DNA of 15,480 nt, taken from NCBI GenBank assembly GCA_003235435.1, contig QJWF01000100.1, forward strand, positions 1 to 15,480, in the 5' to 3' direction. The DNA comes from Nitrosomonadales bacterium. Lineage in GTDB: Bacteria; Pseudomonadota; Gammaproteobacteria; Burkholderiales; Gallionellaceae. Below the pieces are notes generated by a model that was not told the origin of the DNA, did no database searches, and saw only the letters and a program-made list of their open reading frames with translations. Of this stretch, positions 840 to 10,689 are shown piece by piece. The position numbers were made by a program, and so were the translations under genes. Within the stretch, counting starts at the first letter, position 1, and the number at the start of each line of letters is the position of its first letter.

Positions 840-1847
840 ATGCGCTTATCACGTTTAGCATCAATTGCACTGTTCGCTGCCGGGCTGTTCACCAACCAGA
901 CCTACGCCGCGGACGCTCCCCAGCCAACAACTGCTGCTTCGTCATTTGAAGTCATCCCCCCCAATAAAGACAACGACCTGCGGATATTCTATGCGGATGG
1001 CAAGATCGTCAAAGGCACCCCCGCGCTCGAGAAGATGAATAGCGATGCCAATCTCAAGCTATGGCTCGCGGGCAACCAGTTTTTCGCCATGGAGGACGTG
1101 ATCCAGACATTCCAGAAAGCCCATCCCGAAGCAGGCAACGTCGCTGTGATCACGCTGCCACCCGGCGTCATTCTCAAGGCAATCAACGCCGGCGGCTGGA
1201 ACTATGAGGGCAAGGACTACGCGATGCAGCCGGACATCTACGCTTCAGTAGACTTGGGGCACCTGAAGACCCTTAAAGCCAAAGGCAAGATGGACAATTA
1301 CATGATCTATACCCACAATGCGCTGGAACTCATGGTGGCGAAGGACAACCCCAAGAGCATCAAGGGCATCGACGACCTTGGCCGGGACGACTTGAAGATC
1401 ATGCTGCCAAACCCGCTTACCGAGGGCATCATGACTTTCTATGCCAAGAAGGTACTGCAGGATCACAAGCTATGGGACAAAGTATCAGGCGGCAAGGAGT
1501 GCAAGTCCTGCGATCCGACTCCAAACGTTCATTTTACCTCTGTGCATCACCGCGAGATACCTGACGGACTGAAAGCCGGCACCGTGGATGTCGGTATCGT
1601 CTGGGCAACGGAAACCAAAAATGCCCTGGGCGAAGGCCACGCGGTCGACGCGGTGAAATTGCCACCTGAAGATAGCCTGATCAACGATGTGTCTTACGCT
1701 ATCGGCACGCTGACTTCCAGCACCAACTTGCAAGCCGCAAGCAAATACCTTGCTTTCCTGAAATTAGACAGCGGCCAGAGCGCCTATGCCAAATTCGGTT
1801 TCATCAACGCATCCAAGGACGACCTGGAAACCAAACCTATTCCCTGA
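840..1847 (+). CDS. Periplasmic ModA-like substrate-binding protein (orphan, ligand unknown)
   Basis: This 335-residue protein starts with a Sec signal peptide: basic MRLSR, a hydrophobic stretch to about residue 18, and a likely cleavage site after TYA at 23. The mature part looks like a type II periplasmic binding protein of the ModA/SBP_bac_11 class. Supporting features are the motif PDIYASVD at 131-138 (compare the family's 'ADVFASAD'), NPLTEG at 191-196, VGIVWATET at 251-259 and a C-terminal FGF near 319-321. Known ModA proteins bind molybdate or tungstate for an ABC importer, but they are usually about 250 residues. This one has an N-terminal extension (about residues 24-70) and a CxxC pair (C221, C224) near a double histidine (H236, H237), which ModA lacks. 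No permease or ATPase gene is adjacent, so it may serve an unlinked transporter or be a sensor or metal-binding protein. The fold is likely; the ligand is unknown. Confidence 0.7.
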   Translation: MRLSRLASIALFAAGLFTNQTYAADAPQPTTAASSFEVIPPNKDNDLRIFYADGKIVKGTPALEKMNSDANLKLWLAGNQFFAMEDVIQTFQKAHPEAGNVAVITLPPGVILKAINAGGWNYEGKDYAMQPDIYASVDLGHLKTLKAKGKMDNYMIYTHNALELMVAKDNPKSIKGIDDLGRDDLKIMLPNPLTEGIMTFYAKKVLQDHKLWDKVSGGKECKSCDPTPNVHFTSVHHREIPDGLKAGTVDVGIVWATETKNALGEGHAVDAVKLPPEDSLINDVSYAIGTLTSSTNLQAASKYLAFLKLDSGQSAYAKFGFINASKDDLETKPIP

Positions 1848-1932: not shown

Positions 1933-2010
1933 TCCCTCATATCTTTCCTGAATCATTACTCGTCCTAACTCTCCCCATATCAATCAATCTCAACCCTTCT
2001 GGCCATTCAC

Positions 2011-3408
2011 ATGGACTATGACGTGCTGATCATCGGTTCCGGCCCTGCCGGTCAACAGGCGGCCTGGCAGGCAGCACGCATGGGCAAGCGCGCCGCGATC
2101 ATCGAACGCAAGCCCAAGATCGGCGGGGCGGGGCTTCAGACCGGAACCATACCCAGCAAGGCACTACGCGAAGTGGCCTATCTGGTATCTCGCTCTGGAT
2201 TCGGCGGCATGCGGCAGACGCTGGCGCCGGATGTTCGAAGCCGCCATGGCTTGCTGGCGGATGCGGTGCAGCGCAAGGAGATGGTGATTGCACAGCAGGA
2301 ATCAGTCATCATGCAGCGTCTGCTGCGTTCCGGCGTGGCATTGATACCCGGGGAAGCATCTTTTGCCGATGCTCATACCATTCATATCGCCGATTCCTCG
2401 GGGGAAAAACGCAATATTTCCGCCAATGTCATCGTGCTTGCCACGGGATCGAGGCCGCGCCGCCCGTCCAGCGTTCCATTCGACAAGAAGACGGTGCTGG
2501 ATTCGACCTCCATCCTCAATCTGCGCCACCTGCCGGAAAGCCTGCTGGTTGTCGGAGGCGGCGTGATCGCATGCGAGTTCGTCTCGATCTTTGCCGCGCT
2601 GGGGGTGAACGTATGTGTGGTGGACAGCCATGTACAACTGCTGACTTACCTGAGCGAAGACGTGGTGGGCGTGCTGGCCGACAGTTTTTTAAGGATGGGC
2701 GTTACTTTCCACATGCAGGAACGCATCGCGGAAATTCGTCGCGAGGGCAAGGGCACGTTCACCCTGCTGGAAAGCGGAAAGCAATTCCGGACCGATGCGG
2801 TACTGTATGCGCAAGGCAGGGAGCCCAACAGTGAAAAGCTGCAGGTTTCAAACGCCGGCATCATCGTGGAGAATGGCTGGATCGAGGTGAACCGGCAGTT
2901 CCAAACCAGCGTTCCGCATGTCTTTGCGGTCGGCGATCTGATCGGCAGACCCGCGCTTGCTTCGACCGGGATGGAACAGGGACGTGCCGCGGTGCTGTAT
3001 GCATTCGGTGGCAAAGAGCATATTTTGGCCGAGAATCAGCCGATGGCGGTCTATACCATCCCTGAGATATCCTACGTCGGCAAGACTGAAAAGGAAGCGC
3101 AACGGGAAAACATCCCTTATGTTGTCGGGCGAGCATATTTCAAGGACAGCGCACGCGGGCAGATCATCGGCGACGGACAGGGACTGCTCAAACTGGTCGT
3201 GGACTCGGAAAATGAAAAGTTGCTCGGTGTTCACATCGCCGGCGAACAGGCCAGCGAATTGATCCACATTGGGCAACTGGTGATGAACTTGAACGGTACT
3301 GTGCGCGATCTGGTCAGCAATGTTTTCAACTATCCGACACTCGCAGAATGCTACAAGCTTGCCGCGCTTGACTGCCTGCACCAGCTCGAGCAACCGAAGG
3401 AAGTCTAG
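2011..3408 (+). CDS. SthA-like FAD-dependent pyridine nucleotide oxidoreductase lacking redox cysteines
   Basis: This 465-residue flavoprotein belongs to the family of soluble transhydrogenase (SthA) and lipoamide dehydrogenase. Visible motifs are the N-terminal FAD-binding GSGPAG (9-14), ATGSRPRRP (145-153), the NAD(P)-binding GGGVIACE (182-189), a second FAD motif FAVGDLIG (305-312) and the C-terminal dimer domain with FNYPTLAECYK (439-449), which is typical of SthA. In lipoamide dehydrogenase the active disulfide lies in GGxCxxxGCIPSK; here the segment reads GGAGLQTGTIPSK, with G41 and T46 at the cysteine positions. E. coli SthA keeps the first cysteine, so this protein has lost both. The catalytic His of the His-Glu dyad is Y441, while E446 remains. 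Disulfide chemistry is therefore excluded; hydride transfer between NAD(H) and NADP(H) through FAD stays plausible. No good Shine-Dalgarno precedes the ATG. The hyf-like operon starts 102 bases downstream, suggesting but not proving a functional link. Confidence 0.85.
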   Translation: MDYDVLIIGSGPAGQQAAWQAARMGKRAAIIERKPKIGGAGLQTGTIPSKALREVAYLVSRSGFGGMRQTLAPDVRSRHGLLADAVQRKEMVIAQQESVIMQRLLRSGVALIPGEASFADAHTIHIADSSGEKRNISANVIVLATGSRPRRPSSVPFDKKTVLDSTSILNLRHLPESLLVVGGGVIACEFVSIFAALGVNVCVVDSHVQLLTYLSEDVVGVLADSFLRMGVTFHMQERIAEIRREGKGTFTLLESGKQFRTDAVLYAQGREPNSEKLQVSNAGIIVENGWIEVNRQFQTSVPHVFAVGDLIGRPALASTGMEQGRAAVLYAFGGKEHILAENQPMAVYTIPEISYVGKTEKEAQRENIPYVVGRAYFKDSARGQIIGDGQGLLKLVVDSENEKLLGVHIAGEQASELIHIGQLVMNLNGTVRDLVSNVFNYPTLAECYKLAALDCLHQLEQPKEV

Positions 3409-3460
3409 CGGACCCCTCACCATGTTTTGATGAGACGGCGGTGACGAGCAACAAATAATT

Positions 3461-3489
3461 TTCGCGCGCCTGCGCGGCGGGTCTATAAT
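3461..3489 (+). promoter_or_regulatory. Putative sigma-70 promoter of the hyf-like operon
   Basis: A perfect -10 hexamer TATAAT (3484-3489) lies 17 bases after a weak -35 candidate, TTCGCG (3461-3466). The predicted start of transcription, near 3496, leaves a leader of only about 15-25 bases. Bases just after the -10 (TCGCGCCC) form a GC-rich discriminator. The spacer holds a short inverted repeat, CGCGC/GCGCG (3463-3467 and 3472-3476). Confidence 0.6.
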
Positions 3490-3501
3490 TCGCGCCCATT
3501 A

Positions 3502-3508
3502 AGGGAGG
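3502..3508 (+). promoter_or_regulatory. Shine-Dalgarno of hyfB, bearing on its start codon
   Basis: AGGGAGG is a near-perfect match to the anti-Shine-Dalgarno sequence. It is only 2 bases before the GTG at 3511 but 11 bases before the in-frame GTG at 3520. The usual spacing is about 5-9, so neither fits ideally. The true start of HyfB could be either GTG, a difference of three residues. Confidence 0.65.
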
Positions 3509-3510
3509 TA

Positions 3511-5529
3511 GTGCCCGCAGTGTTCGCTTCTTTAGGTGTTTCGCCCATCAACGTCATATTGGGAGTGACGGTGTTCTGGCTGTTGCTCGGCTTGGGCGGT
3601 CTGGCATTGCAGGACAATCGCATCATCACACGGGTCATCTTTCCGGTTGGCGCGATCGGTTCGCTGATATTGGCAACCGCCGCACTAGGCGGTTTGAGCG
3701 GGGTCGATACCGCCGTTCTGCCGATAGGCCTGCCCGACCTGCCGTTCCATCTCCGTATTGATTCCCTCTCCGCTTTTTTCCTGCTGTTGCTCGGCGCATC
3801 CAGTATCGGCATCACGTTGTTCTCGGCAGGCTACTTTGGCCGCATGGCCGTTCAGGAACTGGGTTTGTTGTGCCTGGAATATCACATCTTCCTCGCCAGC
3901 ATGACCCTGGTATTTCTGGCGGACGACGCCTATATGTTCATGGTGGCATGGGAGGCGATGGCGCTGTCGTCCTACTTCCTTGTCACCACCGATCATGACC
4001 AGCCCGAAGTGCGCCGCGCCGGCTTCCTCTATCTGCTGATCGCACATGTCGGTGCGATCGCCATCCTGATGGGATTCGGGGTGATGCAAGGCGGGCATGG
4101 AGACTATACCTTCGACACCATGCGTCACGGACATCTGTCTGCGTATTGGGCCAGCATCACATTCTTTCTGGCATTGTTCGGCTTCGGAGCCAAGGCCGGA
4201 ATATTGCCGATGCATGCCTGGCTGCCGGAGGCGCACCCGGCTGCACCTTCACCTGTATCCGCCTTGCTGAGCGGCATCATGCTCAAGACAGCCATCTACG
4301 GCATACTGCGTGTGAGCTTCGATCTGCTCGACATACAGATCTGGTGGTGGGGGGTGGTAGCACTGACGCTCGGACTTTTCACCGCGCTGTTCGGGGTGAT
4401 CTTCGCCGCCGTGCAAGTGGACATGAAACGCCTGCTGGCTTATTCCTCGATCGAAAACATCGGCATCATTCTGGTCGGCATCGGCCTCACCATCATCTTT
4501 CATGCTTCGGGCAAGGAAGCGCTGGCAGCGCTGTCGCTGACTGCATCGCTCTATCATTCGATCAATCACGCCTTCATGAAGGGTCTGCTGTTCCTCGGCA
4601 CCGGTTCGATCCTTCACGCGACGGGTGAACGGCATCTCGGCAAGCTCGGCGGCTTGATCCACAAGATGCCCAACCTGGCGTTGTTCATGCTGATCGGCAC
4701 CCTTGCGCTTGCCGGATTGCCGCCGCTTAACGGCTTTGTGTCGGAATGGCTGATGCTGCAGGCCTTCCTGTTGTCACCCGGCTTGACGCAAGCGTACATC
4801 AACATGCTGGTGCCGATAGCGGCGGCCGCGCTGGTGCTGACTGCGGCACTGGCGGGATTTGTGATGGTGAAGTTCTACGGAGTGATCTTTCTCGGCCAGC
4901 CACGTGATGCCGGTCTTGCCGTGGTTCACGATGCCGGCATTTGGGAGCGCATAGGCATGCTGTGCATGGTGGCAGGGTGTATCGCCCTAGGCATCTTCCC
5001 TACTTTTGTGATCCTGCATCTGGATTTTGTTGCCGAAATGCTGGTGCATAATTCCCTGGGTACCAGTGCAGTACATTCCGGCTGGCTGATGCTCACGCCG
5101 ATAGCGGCCGAGCGTGCCAGCTACAGCCCCCTCATTTTGCTGCTCATCATCGTCTCCGGCGTGGTACTCACCATGCTGGCGGTAAAGAAGTTCTATCACG
5201 GTCGCTTGAGGCGCGGTCCGGCATGGGACTGCGGTTTCCCCGAGCAGGGCGCGCGCATGCAGGATACGGCGGAGGGATTCGGCCAGCCGATCCGGCAGAT
5301 CTTTGAGTGGTTCATGGGCGTTGTCAGAAAGATGCCCTCGCCGTTCGATCTGCATCCGCATTACCATGCCGAGGTGCATGACCGGCTGTGGAACATTTTC
5401 TATGCGCCGATAAAACGCGCGAATGAGGCGATCGGCAACCAGATTGGAAAATTGCAGCATGGGCGCATCCACGTATACCTGCTATACAGCTTCATCACAC
5501 TGCTGGCCTTGCTGGCGTTCATCGAATGA
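3511..5529 (+). CDS. hyfB: HyfB-like antiporter-like membrane subunit (NuoL/M/N family)
   Basis: This 672-residue inner-membrane protein is the large ion-translocating subunit of hydrogenase-4/complex-I-like assemblies and equals E. coli HyfB in length. About 14 hydrophobic segments form the Mrp-antiporter/NuoM-type core. Key charged residues of the proton path are present: E148 in the segment AWEAMALSSYFLV, K228 in GFGAKAG, H235 in the conserved PMHAWLPEAHPAAPSPVSA block, and K259 in MLKTAIYG. The C-terminal extension (about 560-672) has the HycC/HyfB-type RRGPAWDCGFPEQGARMQ and ends in another membrane segment. It is the first gene of the operon, after a TATAAT promoter. The start is GTG at 3511 or 3520. 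Its stop overlaps the next start in ATGA. In the assembled complex it should couple electron transfer in the peripheral arm to H+ or Na+ movement; which ion is used cannot be read from the sequence. Confidence 0.93.
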   Translation: MPAVFASLGVSPINVILGVTVFWLLLGLGGLALQDNRIITRVIFPVGAIGSLILATAALGGLSGVDTAVLPIGLPDLPFHLRIDSLSAFFLLLLGASSIGITLFSAGYFGRMAVQELGLLCLEYHIFLASMTLVFLADDAYMFMVAWEAMALSSYFLVTTDHDQPEVRRAGFLYLLIAHVGAIAILMGFGVMQGGHGDYTFDTMRHGHLSAYWASITFFLALFGFGAKAGILPMHAWLPEAHPAAPSPVSALLSGIMLKTAIYGILRVSFDLLDIQIWWWGVVALTLGLFTALFGVIFAAVQVDMKRLLAYSSIENIGIILVGIGLTIIFHASGKEALAALSLTASLYHSINHAFMKGLLFLGTGSILHATGERHLGKLGGLIHKMPNLALFMLIGTLALAGLPPLNGFVSEWLMLQAFLLSPGLTQAYINMLVPIAAAALVLTAALAGFVMVKFYGVIFLGQPRDAGLAVVHDAGIWERIGMLCMVAGCIALGIFPTFVILHLDFVAEMLVHNSLGTSAVHSGWLMLTPIAAERASYSPLILLLIIVSGVVLTMLAVKKFYHGRLRRGPAWDCGFPEQGARMQDTAEGFGQPIRQIFEWFMGVVRKMPSPFDLHPHYHAEVHDRLWNIFYAPIKRANEAIGNQIGKLQHGRIHVYLLYSFITLLALLAFIE

Positions 5530-6473
5530 GCGCCTCGGCCATTTTCCTGCAGCTTTTGCAAAACGTGCTGGTACTGCTTGCAGCACCGCTGTTGCTCGGC
5601 TGGATCAATCAGTGCCGTGCCTGGCTGCAGAACCGCAACGGTGCCGGAATGCTGCAGCCATACCGCAACCTGCTCAAACTTTTTCACAAGGATGCGGTGC
5701 TTGCTCACAACGCATCGCAACTGTTCCGCACAACGCCCTATATCCTTTTTGCCTGCATGTGGCTGGCCGCCGCACTGGTACCGGTTCTGGCCACCGACCT
5801 TCCGTTATCGCCGGCGGTCGATGTGATCGCCCTGGTTGGCATCTTCGCGCTGGCCCGGGTATTCATCTCGCTGGCAGCGATGGACATCGGCACGGCCTTC
5901 GGTTCGCTCGGTGCGCGCCGCGAAATGCTGGTCGGCTTTCTCGCCGAACCGGCGCTGCTGATGGTGCTGTTCACCGCTTCCACGATCAGCCAGTCCACCT
6001 CGCTGATCACCATCGTCGAGACGCTGGCACACAAGCAATTCGTGCTTTACCCGAGCATGACCTTTGCGGCTGTCGCGTTCGTCATGGTGTTGCTGGCCGA
6101 GAATGCGCGCGTCCCAGTGGATAATCCCTCCACCCACCTCGAACTGACCATGATCCACGAGGCGATGGTCCTGGAATATTCGGCGCGCCATCTTGCCTTG
6201 GTGGAATGGGCCAGCGCACTCAAACTGTTGGCATATATGGCCATCGGGATCGCCCTGTTCATCCCGTATGGCATTGCCGAAGCGGGCAACTGGAATGCGC
6301 TTCCGGCCGCGATAGCGCTGCTGACTTTCAAATTGCTGCTGGCGGGGGCGGGATTGGCTTTCATCGAGACGATTTCCGCCAAGATGCGCATCTTCCGCGT
6401 GCCGGAATTCATGGGTACCGCATTCCTGCTCGCCGTACTGGGACTATTGACCCACTTTTTGCTGGAGACCTGA
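5526..6473 (+). CDS. hyfC: HyfC-like membrane subunit (NuoH family)
   Basis: This 315-residue membrane protein matches the NuoH/HycD/HyfC family, the subunit that joins the membrane arm to the peripheral arm; E. coli HyfC also has 315 residues. It has about eight transmembrane segments. Conserved loops include YRNLLKLFHKDAV (46-58), MDIGTAFGSLGARREM (119-134) and the acidic block AENARVPVDNPSTHLELTMIH (191-211) followed by EAMVLEYS. In complex I this region forms the charged entry to the proton channels near the quinone site; whether a quinone is used here is unknown. Translation is coupled to hyfB through an ATGA overlap, and only one base separates its stop from hyfE. Confidence 0.93.
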   Translation: MSASAIFLQLLQNVLVLLAAPLLLGWINQCRAWLQNRNGAGMLQPYRNLLKLFHKDAVLAHNASQLFRTTPYILFACMWLAAALVPVLATDLPLSPAVDVIALVGIFALARVFISLAAMDIGTAFGSLGARREMLVGFLAEPALLMVLFTASTISQSTSLITIVETLAHKQFVLYPSMTFAAVAFVMVLLAENARVPVDNPSTHLELTMIHEAMVLEYSARHLALVEWASALKLLAYMAIGIALFIPYGIAEAGNWNALPAAIALLTFKLLLAGAGLAFIETISAKMRIFRVPEFMGTAFLLAVLGLLTHFLLET

Positions 6474-6474
6474 A

Positions 6475-7137
6475 ATGGGCATTCCGATCACCGGCCAGAT
6501 CATCAACATGTGCGCAGCGCTGCTGCTGCTGATCGCCTTCGCGATGCTGTCGCAACGCCGCATTCTGTCCCTGATCAACCTGTTCTCGTTGCAGGGATTG
6601 ATCCTTGCCATCAGCACCAGCGTGGTCGCCTATTCCTCGCAGCAGCAGCATCTGTATTATTCGGCCGCGCTGACCTTGCTGCTCAAGGCTATCGTGCTGC
6701 CGATGATCCTGCACCGGCTGATCCGCAAGCTCAACATCAAATGGGACGTGGAAACCATGTTCAACATTCCCACCATCATGCTGGTCGGTCTGGCGCTGGT
6801 GGTGTTCGCTTTCAACCTTGCAGCGCCGATCTCGCAGATGGCAGCCACCATCACGAGAAGCACGCTGGGCATCGCGATGGCAAGCGTGCTGCTTTCGTTC
6901 CTGATGATGATCACGCGCAGCAAGGCAGTACCGCAGGTGGTGGGTTTTCTTGCGATGGAAAACGGACTGTTCTTCGCTGCCACCTCCGCCACATACGGCA
7001 TGCCGATGGTGGTCGAGCTAGGCATCGCGCTGGATGTACTGGTGGGCATGTTCATCCTCGGCATTTTCTTCTTCCAGATCCGCACTGCATTCGACAGTCT
7101 GGACTTGAAGCATATGGAAAAACTGAAGGAAGAATGA
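6475..7137 (+). CDS. hyfE: HyfE-like membrane subunit (NuoK-related)
   Basis: This 220-residue, very hydrophobic protein corresponds to HyfE of hydrogenase-4 (216 residues in E. coli). It has six or seven transmembrane segments. Its C-terminal half is NuoK-like, with membrane glutamates at E162 (GFLAMENGLFF) and E181 (PMVVELGIALDVLVG), the counterparts of residues needed for proton translocation in complex I. A charged C-terminal tail (HMEKLKEE) is likely cytoplasmic. It starts one base after the hyfC stop and ends one base before the GTG of hyfF, so all three are probably translated in a coupled way. Confidence 0.9.
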   Translation: MGIPITGQIINMCAALLLLIAFAMLSQRRILSLINLFSLQGLILAISTSVVAYSSQQQHLYYSAALTLLLKAIVLPMILHRLIRKLNIKWDVETMFNIPTIMLVGLALVVFAFNLAAPISQMAATITRSTLGIAMASVLLSFLMMITRSKAVPQVVGFLAMENGLFFAATSATYGMPMVVELGIALDVLVGMFILGIFFFQIRTAFDSLDLKHMEKLKEE

Positions 7138-7138
7138 C

Positions 7139-8587
7139 GTGGAAATATTCTGGGTCCTGGTGATTCCCTTTTTCGGCGGCCTGATCATGGCACTCTTCGG
7201 CAGGCAACACTATGCACCGGAGATCAATTCCGTGGTGAGCCTCTGCACCTTCGTAGCGGCTGCCGCCCTGACCGTCCGCGTCATTTCGGACGGTTCATTC
7301 ACGGCATGGAACGAACAATTCTTTGTGGACGCCCTCAATGTTTTTCTGGTCGCGCTGACCGCGTTCGTCGGTTTTACCACTTCGCTGTTCTCGCGCCCCT
7401 ACATGCTCATCGAACAGCATCACGGCAAACTGACTGCGAACATGCTGCGCCTGTATTACAGCATGTATCAGCTGTTCAGCTTCACCATGCTGCTGGCATT
7501 GCTCACCAACAACATGGGCATTCTGTGGGTAGCGATGGAAGCCGCCACGCTAACCACCGTGCTGCTGGTATCGCTGTACCGCACACCCTCTTCGCTGGAG
7601 GCGGCATGGAAGTATTTCATCCTGTGCGGCGTCGGCATCGCACAAGCATTGTTCGGCACCATATTGCTGTATTTCGCAGCCGAAAAACTGCTTGGCGCGG
7701 GGGGAACCGCATTGCTGTGGACACATCTGAACGGGGTTAAAACTCAACTTGAGCCTACCGTTTTGTCGCTCGCATTCGTGTTTCTGCTGGTCGGCTATGG
7801 CACCAAAGTCGGTTTGGCGCCGCTGCACAACTGGCTGCCGGATGCGCATGCCGAAGGACCCACACCGGTATCGGCGGTACTCTCCGGCCTGCTGCTGAAT
7901 GTCGCGCTGTACGCCGTGGTGCGCTCCAAGGTGCTCGTTGATGGCGCGCTCGGATCCCATCTTGCCGGTAATCTGATGATGGGTTTCGGTTTGCTCAGCG
8001 TGGTGATGGCGGCATTCTTCCTGTCGCGGCAAAAGGACGTGAAGCGCATGTTCGCCTATTCCTCGATCGAACACATGGGTCTGATGACATTCGCCTTCGG
8101 CATGGGCGGTCCGGTGGCGACCTTTGCCGGCTTGCTGCACATGACGGTGCACAGTCTGACCAAATCCGCGATTTTCTTTGCCGTCGGCCATGCCGCGCAG
8201 AAATCCGGCACACAACTGATGGAGCACATTCGCGGTTTGATCAAGACCAGTCCGACCGTCGGCTGGGGACTGGCGCTCGGTACTCTGGCCATTCTCGGCA
8301 TGCCGCCGTTCGGCGTATTCACCAGCGAGTTCCTGATCCTGACCACTGCAATGCATTCTTATCCGTGGACAATGCCGTTGCTACTCACCGCGCTCGGCGT
8401 AGCCTTCGCCGCGATCTTTGGACGCATGCAATTGATGGTGTTCGGGGATACCACCAACAAGCGTCTGCCGCACCCCCCCGCACTGATACCGGTGTTCGTG
8501 CATCTGCTGCTGGTATTGATGCTGGGACTGTACATTCCCCCATATCTTGCCGACTGGTACCGGCAAGCTGCCGCACTGATCGGATGA
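7139..8587 (+). CDS. hyfF: HyfF-like antiporter-like membrane subunit (NuoN/NuoM family)
   Basis: This 482-residue inner-membrane protein is the second Mrp/NuoN-type subunit of the operon. It has about 14 transmembrane segments. E134 lies in LWVAMEAATLTTVLL and K223 in GYGTKVGLAPLHNWLPDAHA, the Glu/Lys pair typical of a proton-translocating half channel. The run PTPVSAVLSGLLLNVALYAVVR follows. E. coli HyfF is somewhat longer (526 residues). The start is GTG at 7139, supported by a GGAAG-containing purine-rich stretch within the last codons of hyfE. It is followed after four bases by hyfG. With HyfB this gives two antiporter-like modules; no hyfD-like third module is present. Confidence 0.92.
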   Translation: MEIFWVLVIPFFGGLIMALFGRQHYAPEINSVVSLCTFVAAAALTVRVISDGSFTAWNEQFFVDALNVFLVALTAFVGFTTSLFSRPYMLIEQHHGKLTANMLRLYYSMYQLFSFTMLLALLTNNMGILWVAMEAATLTTVLLVSLYRTPSSLEAAWKYFILCGVGIAQALFGTILLYFAAEKLLGAGGTALLWTHLNGVKTQLEPTVLSLAFVFLLVGYGTKVGLAPLHNWLPDAHAEGPTPVSAVLSGLLLNVALYAVVRSKVLVDGALGSHLAGNLMMGFGLLSVVMAAFFLSRQKDVKRMFAYSSIEHMGLMTFAFGMGGPVATFAGLLHMTVHSLTKSAIFFAVGHAAQKSGTQLMEHIRGLIKTSPTVGWGLALGTLAILGMPPFGVFTSEFLILTTAMHSYPWTMPLLLTALGVAFAAIFGRMQLMVFGDTTNKRLPHPPALIPVFVHLLLVLMLGLYIPPYLADWYRQAAALIG

Positions 8588-8591
8588 TGCG

Positions 8592-10166
8592 ATGAGACTG
8601 GACGATTTCCCCAAGTTATTTACCAAGTTGCATGGAGCCATGCCGGTATGGCACGGCAGCGTGGATGCAAAGGACTTGCGCGCGCTGTGCGAACAGGTAC
8701 TGCATGGCGGGGGAAAACTTCTCGCGCTGTGGGGAGAGGACTGCAGCGATATTTCACCCGATGTCCAAGGTACGACTCGCGAAGCGGGATATGCGCTGCA
8801 TGTCGCGCTGGTGACCGCACCTGGCTTGCTGGTTCTCACGCTGCCGGTGGACCAAAACAAGCCGGCCTTTCCCGACCTGAGCGATCTGTTTCCTGCGGCA
8901 GACCGCATGCAACGCAACATCGCCGACATGCTGGGATTGCATCCCGCTGAGGGCGGAGACCACCGCAAGTGGACGCGTCATGCCTCCTGGCCCGGCAATG
9001 CGCATCCGCTGCGCAAGTCCTTTGACATCAATGCGACGCATGCTACCGAGATGGATGCATATCAATTTGTGCCGGTGACCGGCAACGGTGTGCACGAGAT
9101 CGCTGTCGGGCCGGTACATGCGGGCATCATTGAGGTGGGACATTTCCATTTTTCCGTCATCGGGGAAAAAGTGCTTCGGCTTGAAGAACGTTTCGGCTAC
9201 AAACACAAGGGCATCGAAAAAAGATTCGAAGGCATGTCGCTGGAGCAGGGCGCCAAACTTGCCGGCCGCATATCGGGCGATACCACGGTTGCCTATGCCT
9301 GGGCTTACGCGCTGGCCGTGGAAAGCGTCACTCACACCACGGCGCCATTGCGCGCGCAATGGCTGCGCGCGATGTTCCTCGAACTGGAACGTCTGCTCAA
9401 CCACCTGGGCGATCTCGGCTATCTCGGCAACGATGCCGCGTTGGGCTTCGGCTTCGCGCAATTCTGGATACTCAAGGAAGACCTGCTGCGCATGAACAGC
9501 GAACTGTTCGGCCATCGTTATCTGATGGATCGGATCGTGCCCGGTGGCGTGTCGGTCGATATCGACAGCGCCACGCATACCAGGATATTTGAGACCCTGC
9601 AGCATATCGCAAGCACGGTCTCAACCCTGAAAAACATCTATGACGAACATGCCGGCGTGCAGGATCGCTTCATTACCACCGGGCGCGTCACGCCCGATCT
9701 TGCTGCTCAACTCGGACTGACGGGTCTCGCCGGGCGTGCCAGCGGCCAGGCTTGGGATTTGCGCGCGCAGTTCCCGTGCGCCCCTTATGACCAGCTTGAA
9801 GTCTTGATGGCAACCCATCGCAACGGCGATGTTGCGGCGCGTGTCACCGTGCGTTTCGAGGAAATCACGGAATCCATCCGGCTCATCCGCGCGATACTGG
9901 AGAAGTTGCCGCAGGGAGAATCGCGTTGCGCCATCGGCGAGGTGCAATCAGTACATCCCGGCATCGGCTGGGTGGAAGGATGGCGCGGTGAAGTGCTGAT
10001 CGCGCTGCATACCGGAAGCGACAACCTGATCCATCGCCTGCACGCGCATGATCCCTCGTGGCAGAACTGGCCGGTGCTGGAACACGCGGTCATCGGCAAC
10101 ATCGTGCCGGATTTCCCGCTGATCAACAAATCGTTCAACCTGAGTTACAGCGGCGTCGATTTATAG
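8592..10166 (+). CDS. hyfG: HyfG-like large subunit (NuoC-NuoD fusion) lacking the Ni-Fe ligands
   Basis: This 524-residue cytoplasmic peripheral-arm protein has a weakly conserved NuoC-like N-terminal part (about 1-140) and a group 4 hydrogenase large-subunit/NuoD-like remainder. Family landmarks are EVGHFHFSVIGEKVLRLEE (181-199), YKHKGIEKRFEGMSLEQGAKLAGRI (203-227) and LEIERLLNHLGDLG-like residues at 264-276 (here LELERLLNHLGDLG). In active hydrogenases Ni-Fe is held by CGxC near the middle and DPCxxC at the end. Here the first motif reads SGDTTVAY (S228 and T231 in place of Cys) and the second NLSYSGVDL (S518 and G521 in place of Cys). All four ligands are gone, so it cannot carry a Ni-Fe centre. 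The protein also ends right at the second motif, with no extension for protease processing. These features fit an Ehr-type subunit. What occupies the old active-site cavity, for example a quinone or nothing, is unknown. Confidence 0.9.
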   Translation: MRLDDFPKLFTKLHGAMPVWHGSVDAKDLRALCEQVLHGGGKLLALWGEDCSDISPDVQGTTREAGYALHVALVTAPGLLVLTLPVDQNKPAFPDLSDLFPAADRMQRNIADMLGLHPAEGGDHRKWTRHASWPGNAHPLRKSFDINATHATEMDAYQFVPVTGNGVHEIAVGPVHAGIIEVGHFHFSVIGEKVLRLEERFGYKHKGIEKRFEGMSLEQGAKLAGRISGDTTVAYAWAYALAVESVTHTTAPLRAQWLRAMFLELERLLNHLGDLGYLGNDAALGFGFAQFWILKEDLLRMNSELFGHRYLMDRIVPGGVSVDIDSATHTRIFETLQHIASTVSTLKNIYDEHAGVQDRFITTGRVTPDLAAQLGLTGLAGRASGQAWDLRAQFPCAPYDQLEVLMATHRNGDVAARVTVRFEEITESIRLIRAILEKLPQGESRCAIGEVQSVHPGIGWVEGWRGEVLIALHTGSDNLIHRLHAHDPSWQNWPVLEHAVIGNIVPDFPLINKSFNLSYSGVDL

Positions 10167-10176
10167 GGCTCCACAG

Positions 10177-10689
10177 ATGTATCAGATCATCAAGCAAATA
10201 CTTCACACCGGTATCAAATCCGAAAAGCCTCCTCAGCCGGATGATGCGTTGCGCAGCCAAGTGCAGGAGATCAATGCACAGATCCTGAAGTATGTCGGCC
10301 GCGCGCTGGCCATCCGCCATGTCGACGCAGGATCATGCAACGGCTGCGAACTCGAGATCCACTGCCTGAACAATCCGTACTACAACATCGAAGGGATGGG
10401 CATCCATTTCGTCGCCAGTCCGCGACATGCAGACATGCTGCTGGTCACTGGGCCGGTTTCGCGGCATATGGAAGTGGCACTCAAGCGAACTTTCGATGCC
10501 ACGCCCGACCCCAAGCTGGTCGTCGCGGTCGGCGATTGCGGCAGGGACGGCGGCATCTTCGGCACCAGCTATGCGAGTTGCGGAGGGGTGACGAGCGTGA
10601 TCCCGGTCGATGCCGTCGTTCCCGGCTGTCCTCCCACCCCGGTTGCGATACTGCAGGGCATTCTGACCGCTGTCAGCCGGCGCGTATGA
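10177..10689 (+). CDS. hyfI: HyfI-like small subunit (NuoB family) with proximal [4Fe-4S] site
   Basis: This 170-residue protein is the NuoB/HycG/HyfI-type small subunit that holds the iron-sulfur cluster next to the large subunit. The cluster cysteines are intact: C54 and C57 in GSCNGCELE, C121 in VGDCGRDGG and C151 in PGCPPTP. A further conserved cysteine, C135, lies in SYASCGGV. The CNGCE spacing is the hydrogenase form rather than the tandem CC of complex I. E. coli HyfI is longer (252 residues) because of a C-terminal extension missing here; the length is closer to NuoB. It is the last gene of the operon, ten bases after hyfG, with 55 bases to the convergent dnaE end. Keeping the cluster argues that the complex still moves electrons even though the large subunit has no Ni-Fe site. 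Confidence 0.93.
   Translation: MYQIIKQILHTGIKSEKPPQPDDALRSQVQEINAQILKYVGRALAIRHVDAGSCNGCELEIHCLNNPYYNIEGMGIHFVASPRHADMLLVTGPVSRHMEVALKRTFDATPDPKLVVAVGDCGRDGGIFGTSYASCGGVTSVIPVDAVVPGCPPTPVAILQGILTAVSRRV

Follow-up and report, generated by a model that had tools for sequence, protein, structure and literature searches.

The question raised by this locus is whether an operon carrying hydrogenase-4 gene names encodes a hydrogenase at all and, if it does not, how such a complex could work. The operon, hyfBCEFGI, lies on a 15,480-bp stretch of DNA from a Nitrosomonadales bacterium (hereafter the window), which is an entire contig (C205) of a 1.57-Mb metagenome-assembled genome (MAG) that is 64% complete. 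An initial annotation had described a tightly coupled six-gene operon at 3511..10689, and the open reading frames (ORFs), coordinates and family matches bear this out: six consecutive ORFs on the plus strand either overlap by 4 bp or are separated by gaps of 1-10 bp. Judged from its sequence, the operon encodes a complex of the energy-converting-hydrogenase-related (Ehr) type and no hydrogenase.

HyfG (8592..10166, plus strand, 524 amino acids (aa)) is the NuoCD/HycE-like large subunit (PF00346, 1.7e-36; PF00329, 1.5e-12; solved chain 7z0s_E, HycE, 1.4e-56). After rows shorter than 400 aa and identical rows were dropped, the HyfG alignment held 129 rows (119 of the window type, 5 active and 5 other) plus NuoCD. 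Compared with HycE, the L1 motif RVCGIC is replaced by RISGDT (residues 226-231; 9267..9284, plus strand) and the L2 stretch DPCYSC by NLSYSG; the altered L2 motif and C-terminus (residues 512-524, NKSFNLSYSGVDL; 10125..10163, plus strand) occupy the place of DPC.SC and a C-terminal extension in active enzymes. The four Ni-Fe ligand positions in the window HyfG are S, T (mostly S in relatives), S and G, whereas the five active hydrogenases have all four Ni-Fe cysteines and the C-terminal maturation extension, neither of which is found in HyfG. The substitutes are nearly fixed among the 119 window-type rows (for L1, S228 in 118, G229 in 118, D230 in 119 and, at residue 231, S in 105, T in 9 and A in 5; for L2, N512, K513, S514, Y519 and D523 in 119 each, S518 in 117 and G521 in 118), which is unlike a decaying site, and these distinct rows give the signature R[VI]SGD[ST] ... 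NKSFNLSYxGxDL. The Ni-Fe site is absent, as in Ehr complexes, all four cysteines being replaced across the 119 rows. The position of the NuoD tyrosine, which we take to be the quinone residue of complex I, is occupied by Gly229 in 118 of the 119 HyfG rows and by Tyr in Escherichia coli NuoCD. The structural model of HyfG (predicted local distance difference test, pLDDT, 75.8) has 7z0s_E as its best fold match (TM-score 0.82 by query length); because residues 154-205 and 500-524 fall below pLDDT 50, no pocket geometry is claimed.

HyfI (10177..10689, plus strand, 170 aa) is the NuoB/HycG-like small subunit (PF01058, 3.5e-28; MbhJ, 2e-39; HycG, 5e-38). Its cluster ligands Cys54 and Cys57 (SCNGC; 10336..10347), Cys121 (10537..10539) and Cys151 (PGCPP; 10627..10629), all on the plus strand, are each cysteine in 114/114 window-type rows; the four are also present in L168, a window-type sequence at 53% that lies below the threshold of the HyfI count and outside the 114. 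HyfI is expected to carry one [4Fe-4S] cluster of the proximal/N2 type. The alignment of HyfI with its two best solved NuoB-like relatives starts only at residues 25 and 28, and the preceding peptide (the 'ferredoxin scar', residues 1-24, MYQIIKQILHTGIKSEKPPQPDDA; 10177..10248, plus strand) is like the N-terminal membrane-anchor segment of HycF/HyfH. With a position-specific scoring matrix (PSSM) built from 101 HyfI rows, HycF scored 10.2 and HyfH 8.4, a level reached by none of 2000 shuffles; of 3523 decoy N-termini nine scored as high, namely eight HyfI rows and the fused protein of locus L062 described below, and the best unrelated one scored 0.4. In solved formate hydrogenlyase the HycF N-terminal segment folds into a loop and a short amphipathic helix that lie at the membrane (PMC9474812). 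The HyfI model is poor (pLDDT 63) and shows a helix at residues 2-11 at low confidence within an overall NuoB fold. When 16 window-type rows were aligned with the fused L062 row by MAFFT, the gap fell between the TGIKS/T peptide and the NuoB-like part. Since the HyfI peptide leads directly into the NuoB-like domain, the ferredoxin subunit seems to have been excised, not simply to be missing.

A ferredoxin domain fused to the N-terminal side of HyfI was found in loci L151, L152, L153, L176 and in set 1 of L062, with an N-terminus comparable to that of the window HyfI. The fused proteins of L176 (the second Variovorax set), L151 and L152 give Fer4 dicluster matches; the domain of L153 is degenerate, with a Fer4 trace below cut-off, and that of L062 is degenerate without a Pfam match, keeping one CxxCxxC. 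Among 7999 proteins of any type scored against the L062 fused protein, the best 120 listed relatives are 82-100% identical and 270-297 aa long, and five that were inspected keep C[VI]FCGRC and lack the first cluster motif. In the PSSM test the L153 fused form stands out partly (score -4.8, reached by 17 of 3523 decoys and 0 of 2000 shuffles). These sister complexes share one HyfG clade and a similar subunit set with the window; in L151 and L153 the best HyfB-like frame follows hyfI, and the L151 and L152 loci gave no HyfE-like frame.

The HyfG tree comprised 37 rows, including E. coli HycE and HyfG, three intact Hyf-type hydrogenases of the order and two Nuo outgroup rows, with no Geobacter, archaeal or other published Ehr reference among them. 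All 30 rows that carry a fusion or the scar fall into one clade (support 100/100) apart from E. coli HycE/HyfG and the three intact hydrogenases. Within it, the 25 scar rows, none of which has a Ni-Fe cysteine motif, form a clade (97/95) that is joined by the Variovorax fused row (100/98), so that the ferredoxin-less clade is nested within a fusion-carrying lineage; we infer that fusion first and deletion later is the simplest order. Branching near the root of the 30-row clade lacks resolution, and four long branches were flagged (L166_31, which is the Variovorax row, L153 and both Nuo outgroup rows), with long branches meeting at L153/L151. The tree condition of the initial annotation was a HyfG inside the active hydrogenases; among these rows, which hold no published Ehr reference, the window HyfG is related to but outside active group-4 hydrogenases, with the caveat that L062 set 1, whose Ni-Fe cysteines are intact, branches within the 30-row clade.

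Several observations on these loci stand on their own. In L062, the set at 1989-4425 (plus strand) lies directly upstream of a window-type hyf set and combines four kept Ni-Fe cysteines with a degenerate ferredoxin domain on HyfI. The HyfI of L153 (8652-9395, minus strand), with its degenerate fused ferredoxin domain, has Asn in place of one proximal-cluster Cys (PGNPP), so it possibly holds no ordinary cluster. Plasmid 3 of Variovorax sp. PBL-E5 (L166/L176) carries two hyf-like sets separated by a few kb, of which one has the fused ferredoxin domain and the other does not. A close HyfG match is lacking in genome G176, which belongs to the window's genus and carries an Ehr-like set of another kind, its HyfI being fused to a Fer4 dicluster domain (L151, 8932-11314, plus strand).

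By the ORF list and Pfam, the window contig has no gene for a ferredoxin-like subunit (hyfA, hyfH), for hyfD or for hyp maturation proteins. The earlier statement that these genes are missing is true of the contig, an absence that is weak by itself because the MAG is 64% complete. E. coli HyfH was searched against 20 genomes with window-type hyf (the window's own and 19 that are at least 93% complete), and no separate HyfH was found in the nine genomes with the nuo operon located, where the best match fell in the nuo region; the other 11 are unmapped. A survey of the order covered 200 genomes, 199 of at least 90% completeness and the window's own, and found a close HyfG (E 7.8e-115 or better) in 51 genomes besides the window's own. 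HypD is absent from 17 of these 51 (hyf+) genomes and gave no match in G000; it is present in 34/51 hyf+ versus 33/148 other genomes, presumably serving other hydrogenases. Because 34 of the 51 have HypD, its absence from 17 does not mean that hyf+ genomes avoid Hyp proteins. The initial annotation would have been overturned by hyfA, hyfH, hyfD or hyp genes of the same complex elsewhere in the genome; for hyfH and hyp the nine mapped genomes and the 17 genomes without HypD speak for the claim, while hyfA and hyfD were searched on the contig only.

The membrane arm consists of four plus-strand genes. HyfB (3511..5529, 672 aa) is an antiporter-like subunit (PF00361, 1.1e-56; NF005086, hydrogenase 4 subunit B, 864 bits versus a cut-off of 667), HyfC (5526..6473, 315 aa) a NuoH/HycD-like membrane anchor (PF00146, 1.6e-34; best solved chain 7z0s_D, HycD, 2.7e-39), HyfE (6475..7137, 220 aa) a NuoK-like membrane subunit (NF008556, hydrogenase 4 membrane subunit, 8.7e-24, 84.6 bits versus a cut-off of 136; no match in the Pfam scan) and HyfF (7139..8587, 482 aa) a second antiporter-like subunit (PF00361, 1.7e-52; NF005045, 880 bits versus a cut-off of 543). 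NCBIfam thus names HyfB and HyfF above cut-off, and the HyfE match falls below it. Among solved chains, E. coli formate hydrogenlyase is the best match for HyfG, HyfB and HyfC; HyfI matches MBH first and formate hydrogenlyase second, and HyfF matches MBX first and MBH second. Charged residues and histidines of these subunits are kept in at least 97% of rows: E148, K228, K259, H349, H353 and K357 of HyfB (89 rows), E134, K223, H334, H338 and K342 of HyfF (112 rows), and E133, E141, E192, D199, E206 and E212 of HyfC (99 rows). By complex I, we take the conserved charged residues of HyfB to be those of the ion path.

Conservation was compared in the 10 of 51 hyf+ genomes with both the hyf and nuo operons located, which give 45 pairs that are not independent. 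Mean identities for nuo were 0.904 (nuoB), 0.832 (nuoD), 0.747 (nuoH), 0.745 (nuoM), 0.725 (nuoL), 0.662 (nuoN) and 0.640 (nuoC), and those for hyf were 0.777 (hyfF, the highest), 0.743 (hyfE), 0.710 (hyfC), 0.689 (hyfI), 0.647 (hyfB) and 0.610 (hyfG). In all 45 pairs nuoD exceeds nuoM and hyfG falls below hyfF; the D-part of HyfG, without its C-domain, reaches 0.664, which is below hyfF in 45/45 pairs and above the hyfB mean. Between E. coli Hyf and Hyc, both of them hydrogenases, identities are 0.73 (G), 0.67 (I), 0.53 (C) and 0.38 (B), and between L154, an intact hydrogenase of the order, and E. coli Hyf they are 0.46 (I), 0.41 (G), 0.35 (C) and 0.34 (B). At alpha-beta distance (L167, L168, L169 and L171 versus the window), HyfG (0.43-0.45) is above HyfB (0.41-0.43) and matches HyfE (0.38-0.44), and HyfI (0.54-0.56) equals HyfF (0.53-0.57). 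Judged by these identities, the shift in constraint is real for HyfG against HyfF and HyfC and does not extend to every membrane subunit.

A scan of GTDB genomes with HyfG yielded 573 confirmed relatives, of which the best 80 were kept; the best named relatives of the window hyfG among them are Nitrosomonadales, Gallionellaceae and Sulfuricella MAGs. All six genes occur in 63 of the 80 loci, and their order is hyfB-C-E-F-G-I in 63/63, across many genera; the remaining 17 loci end early at one end and were left out of this count. In annotated plasmid copies (Variovorax, two Rhizobium records, Methylovirgula and Burkholderia) the six genes are alike and the flanking genes differ.

The gene set hyfBCEFGI itself is already in print and has been read variously, as an incomplete operon, a group-4 hydrogenase, a non-hydrogenase or a possible formate oxidation system, with the HyfI peptide and the pocket going unmentioned in the portions available. 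In Cupriavidus metallidurans CH34 and C. necator H16 it was described as an incomplete operon unlikely to have a role in lithotrophy (PMC2864759), in Acidithiobacillus ferrooxidans it was classed as non-hydrogenase by HydDB (PMC7735108), in Nitrospira it was called a putative group-4 hydrogenase (PMC5596200), and in A. caldus one hyfBCEFG adjoins a beta carbonic anhydrase and another co-occurs with carbon fixation genes (PMC3826726). The CH34 megaplasmid copy (L165; 53% HyfG identity), presumably the published one, groups within the window-type clade. Ehr complexes have been described as lacking Ni-Fe ligands and having an undefined function, in comammox Nitrospira (PMC10284858) and Margulisbacteria (PMC6349859), and a search for relay-less Ehr complexes returned only the latter paper. 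For the HyfI anchor peptide, the pocket signature and the conservation shift, no account was found in the portions of the literature searched, which leaves most subscription journals uncovered.

The window complex resembles Ehr complexes in its NuoCD/HycE-like and NuoB-like head, its antiporter-like and NuoH-like membrane subunits and the lack of CxxC pairs in HyfG (119 rows), and differs from Ehr as described in that its cluster has no HyfH/NuoI relay, only the anchor-like peptide on HyfI. The ehr set of Geobacter and a hyc-type set of Mycobacterium tuberculosis have a similar six-gene make-up. E. coli Hyc/Hyf provides the best solved relative of HyfB, HyfC and HyfG and the second best of HyfI, and shares the HyfG fold; unlike the window, it has HyfH/HycF, HyfA/HycB, HyfD (Hyf only), Ni-Fe ligands, hyp genes and the C-terminal extension. 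Complex I shares the core folds, and contig C30 of the window's genome carries a nuo operon of its own; the window cluster, however, has no NADH module and no NuoI, carries Gly at the quinone Tyr and shows another conservation profile. The antiporter and head subunits of Pyrococcus MBX and MBH align with those of the window; MBX, a sulfane-sulfur reductase, and MBH each have a NuoI-like subunit.

On balance, we lean somewhat towards an ion pump fed directly at HyfI, in which a soluble carrier would exchange electrons through the cluster with a substrate in the HyfG pocket, with coupling via HyfC to HyfB and HyfF. Its ancestor would have had a HyfH-type relay fused to HyfI, which was then deleted with the anchor peptide left behind. 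A soluble low-potential carrier (ferredoxin- or flavodoxin-like) would dock at the former place of the relay and exchange electrons with the HyfI cluster, and the altered HyfG pocket would hold the substrate that takes up or gives off these electrons, with quinol/quinone as a first guess. Through HyfC, the redox step would be linked to the movement of ions by HyfB and HyfF; the coupling could run either way, and its direction may differ among organisms. In CO2-fixing sulfur and iron oxidisers, the complex may serve carbon fixation through a low-potential reductant or through inorganic-carbon supply. The proposal of the initial annotation, a minimal Ehr-like member that is possibly an ion pump, gains support from the pocket, the cluster, the membrane residues and the missing relay.

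A number of points weigh against an ion pump fed at HyfI. The donor and the acceptor in this reading are hypothetical, no neighbour gene is common to all lineages, and with the complex I quinone Tyr missing, quinone as the substrate is a guess. HyfG is less conserved than HyfF, HyfE and HyfC, the opposite of NuoD, so net electron transfer could matter less. The homology evidence comes from short N-terminal peptides and is weak, and the PSSM test did not single out E. coli NuoI, nor the fused HyfI of L151, L152 or L176. The sister position of the Variovorax fused row is unsure because of its very long branch.

The neighbouring genes suggest a different function, an inorganic-carbon complex in which a pump running on the membrane potential or on a limited flow of electrons would power or perform CO2 hydration or bicarbonate accumulation together with a SulP permease and a carbonic anhydrase, like cyanobacterial NDH-1MS or the DAB complexes; we regard this as unlikely to be the main function. 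In Sulfuricella sp. T08 (L016), the order is SulP, hyfBCEFGI, a CsoSCA-like carbonic anhydrase, a GGDEF/EAL gene, a LysR regulator and the RuBisCO large and small subunits, and in five Thiobacillus-type loci (L045, L053, L076, L079 and L082) RuBisCO subunit genes and a VWA (cbbO-like) gene lie in the same stretch as hyf. Among the best 80 of the 573 relatives, 21 loci have SulP, 6 a CsoSCA-like anhydrase and 6 RuBisCO subunits; in 17 of the 58 loci where this is visible, a SulP permease gene on the strand of hyfB ends at most 600 bp upstream of it. RuBisCO is present in 36/51 hyf+ versus 38/148 hyf- genomes (15 of 89 matches, weaker than 1e-100, were dropped; Fisher P-value = 2.5e-8, which ignores relatedness), and SulP, anhydrase or RuBisCO genes lie near hyf in 5 of 10 fetched carriers with RuBisCO and in 0 of 13 without it (13 of the 15 loci without RuBisCO were examined, G038 and G125 being left out). 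The published A. caldus neighbourhood with a beta carbonic anhydrase also fits (PMC3826726). However, the 15 of 51 carriers without RuBisCO argue against a general role, and the plasmid copies have unrelated neighbours. The closest solved relative of SulP11 is a plant sulfate transporter, and in L022, L023, L033 and L072 SulP sits beside a DmsC-like gene, which would fit sulfate export after sulfite oxidation; on these grounds SulP was not taken to prove bicarbonate uptake. Both SulP and an anhydrase are absent from the window itself, and no CupA/B or DabA was found among the ten window proteins scanned, the genomes not having been searched for them. As these neighbours occur in part of the fetched carriers with RuBisCO and in none of the 13 without it, the carbon-fixation link holds for some lineages only. 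A stronger version is doubtful and somewhat less probable still: the input chain would have been dismantled stepwise (separate HyfH, fusion, degenerate fusion, anchor only), and the result would now be an ion-driven inorganic-carbon device working with SulP and anhydrase in CO2-fixing betaproteobacteria, a proteobacterial counterpart of NDH-1MS. No literature on hyf with cbbL and carbonic anhydrase was found in the search.

The conservation profile bears on a further explanation, that the HyfG pocket and HyfI cluster are only structural or act as a redox sensor, with the membrane arm working as an Mrp-type cation/proton antiporter. HyfF, HyfE and HyfC are indeed better conserved than HyfG, and the charged membrane residues are kept; but the four cluster ligands in 114/114 HyfI and the nearly fixed HyfG signature point to a redox or ligand role, HyfB is not above the D-part of HyfG (0.647 versus 0.664), and at alpha-beta distance HyfG is ahead of HyfB and HyfI ranks with the best conserved subunits, so we consider this improbable. 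A decaying remnant of a hydrogenase operon would account for the missing subunits, the lost metal site and a HyfG less conserved than most membrane subunits, and was rejected as very improbable in view of the near-invariant pocket, cluster and charged membrane residues and the gene order kept in 63/63 loci of many genera. An ordinary [NiFe] hydrogenase-4 or formate hydrogenlyase with its missing subunits encoded elsewhere has the gene names, the family matches and the published assignments for A. caldus and Nitrospira in its favour, yet it is the least probable explanation of all: HyfG has neither Ni-Fe cysteines nor the C-terminal extension, HypD is absent from 17/51 genomes, the nine mapped genomes have no separate HyfH, and HydDB placed the A. 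ferrooxidans set among the non-hydrogenases (PMC7735108). A hidden hydrogenase was rejected on this evidence from pocket, HypD and HyfH.

Six-gene complexes of this type are common in environmental and plant-associated proteobacteria, where annotations regularly name them hydrogenase 4 or formate hydrogenlyase. Provided that the relay was removed and its anchor retained, they would be a natural test of what ion translocation needs in the complex I superfamily, namely one cluster, two antiporter subunits and a substrate pocket, and sister complexes in which the ferredoxin domain is intact, degenerate or deleted make this question testable. For some sulfur oxidisers, the link with RuBisCO and carbonic anhydrase offers a concrete phenotype to seek.

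Among the neighbouring genes of relatives, the carboxysome-type CsoSCA-like anhydrase homologue between hyf and RuBisCO in L016 (12214-13275, minus strand) keeps the stretch HFS..DP.H.GCA. In a Thiobacillus MAG (L078, 16376-21243, minus strand), Mrp/Mbh-type antiporter genes (MbhD, MbhE and MNHE domains) lie about 4-9 kb downstream of hyf.

In the window, hyfB is preceded on its 5' side by metG, a solute-binding protein gene and an SthA-like flavoprotein gene, and hyfI is followed on its 3' side by dnaE on the opposite strand and then an MFS gene on the plus strand. The 102-bp leader between the SthA-like gene and hyfB (3409..3510, plus strand) carries a Shine-Dalgarno-like AGGGAGG (3502-3508); the start of hyfB is possibly the GTG at 3520, which is better spaced, 3511 being only 2 bases from this motif. 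The promoter and terminator scan of the region gave matches no more numerous than in shuffles, the tRNA scan of the window found none, and E. coli DNA searched with a 301-base piece of hyfI gave no match. The gene at 840-1847 (plus strand) encodes a ModA/CysP-like solute-binding protein, with no transporter permease gene recognised alongside. The SthA-like (Si-specific transhydrogenase) flavoprotein gene (2011-3408, plus strand), 102 bp upstream of hyfB, was rejected as the source of an electron donor, as it adjoins hyfB upstream only in the window and L008. In L054, L057, L066 and L071 the SthA-like gene lies downstream, beside metG, on the other strand and away from hyfB, and in L046 a more distant flavoprotein (29% match) is encoded about 1 kb upstream of hyfB.

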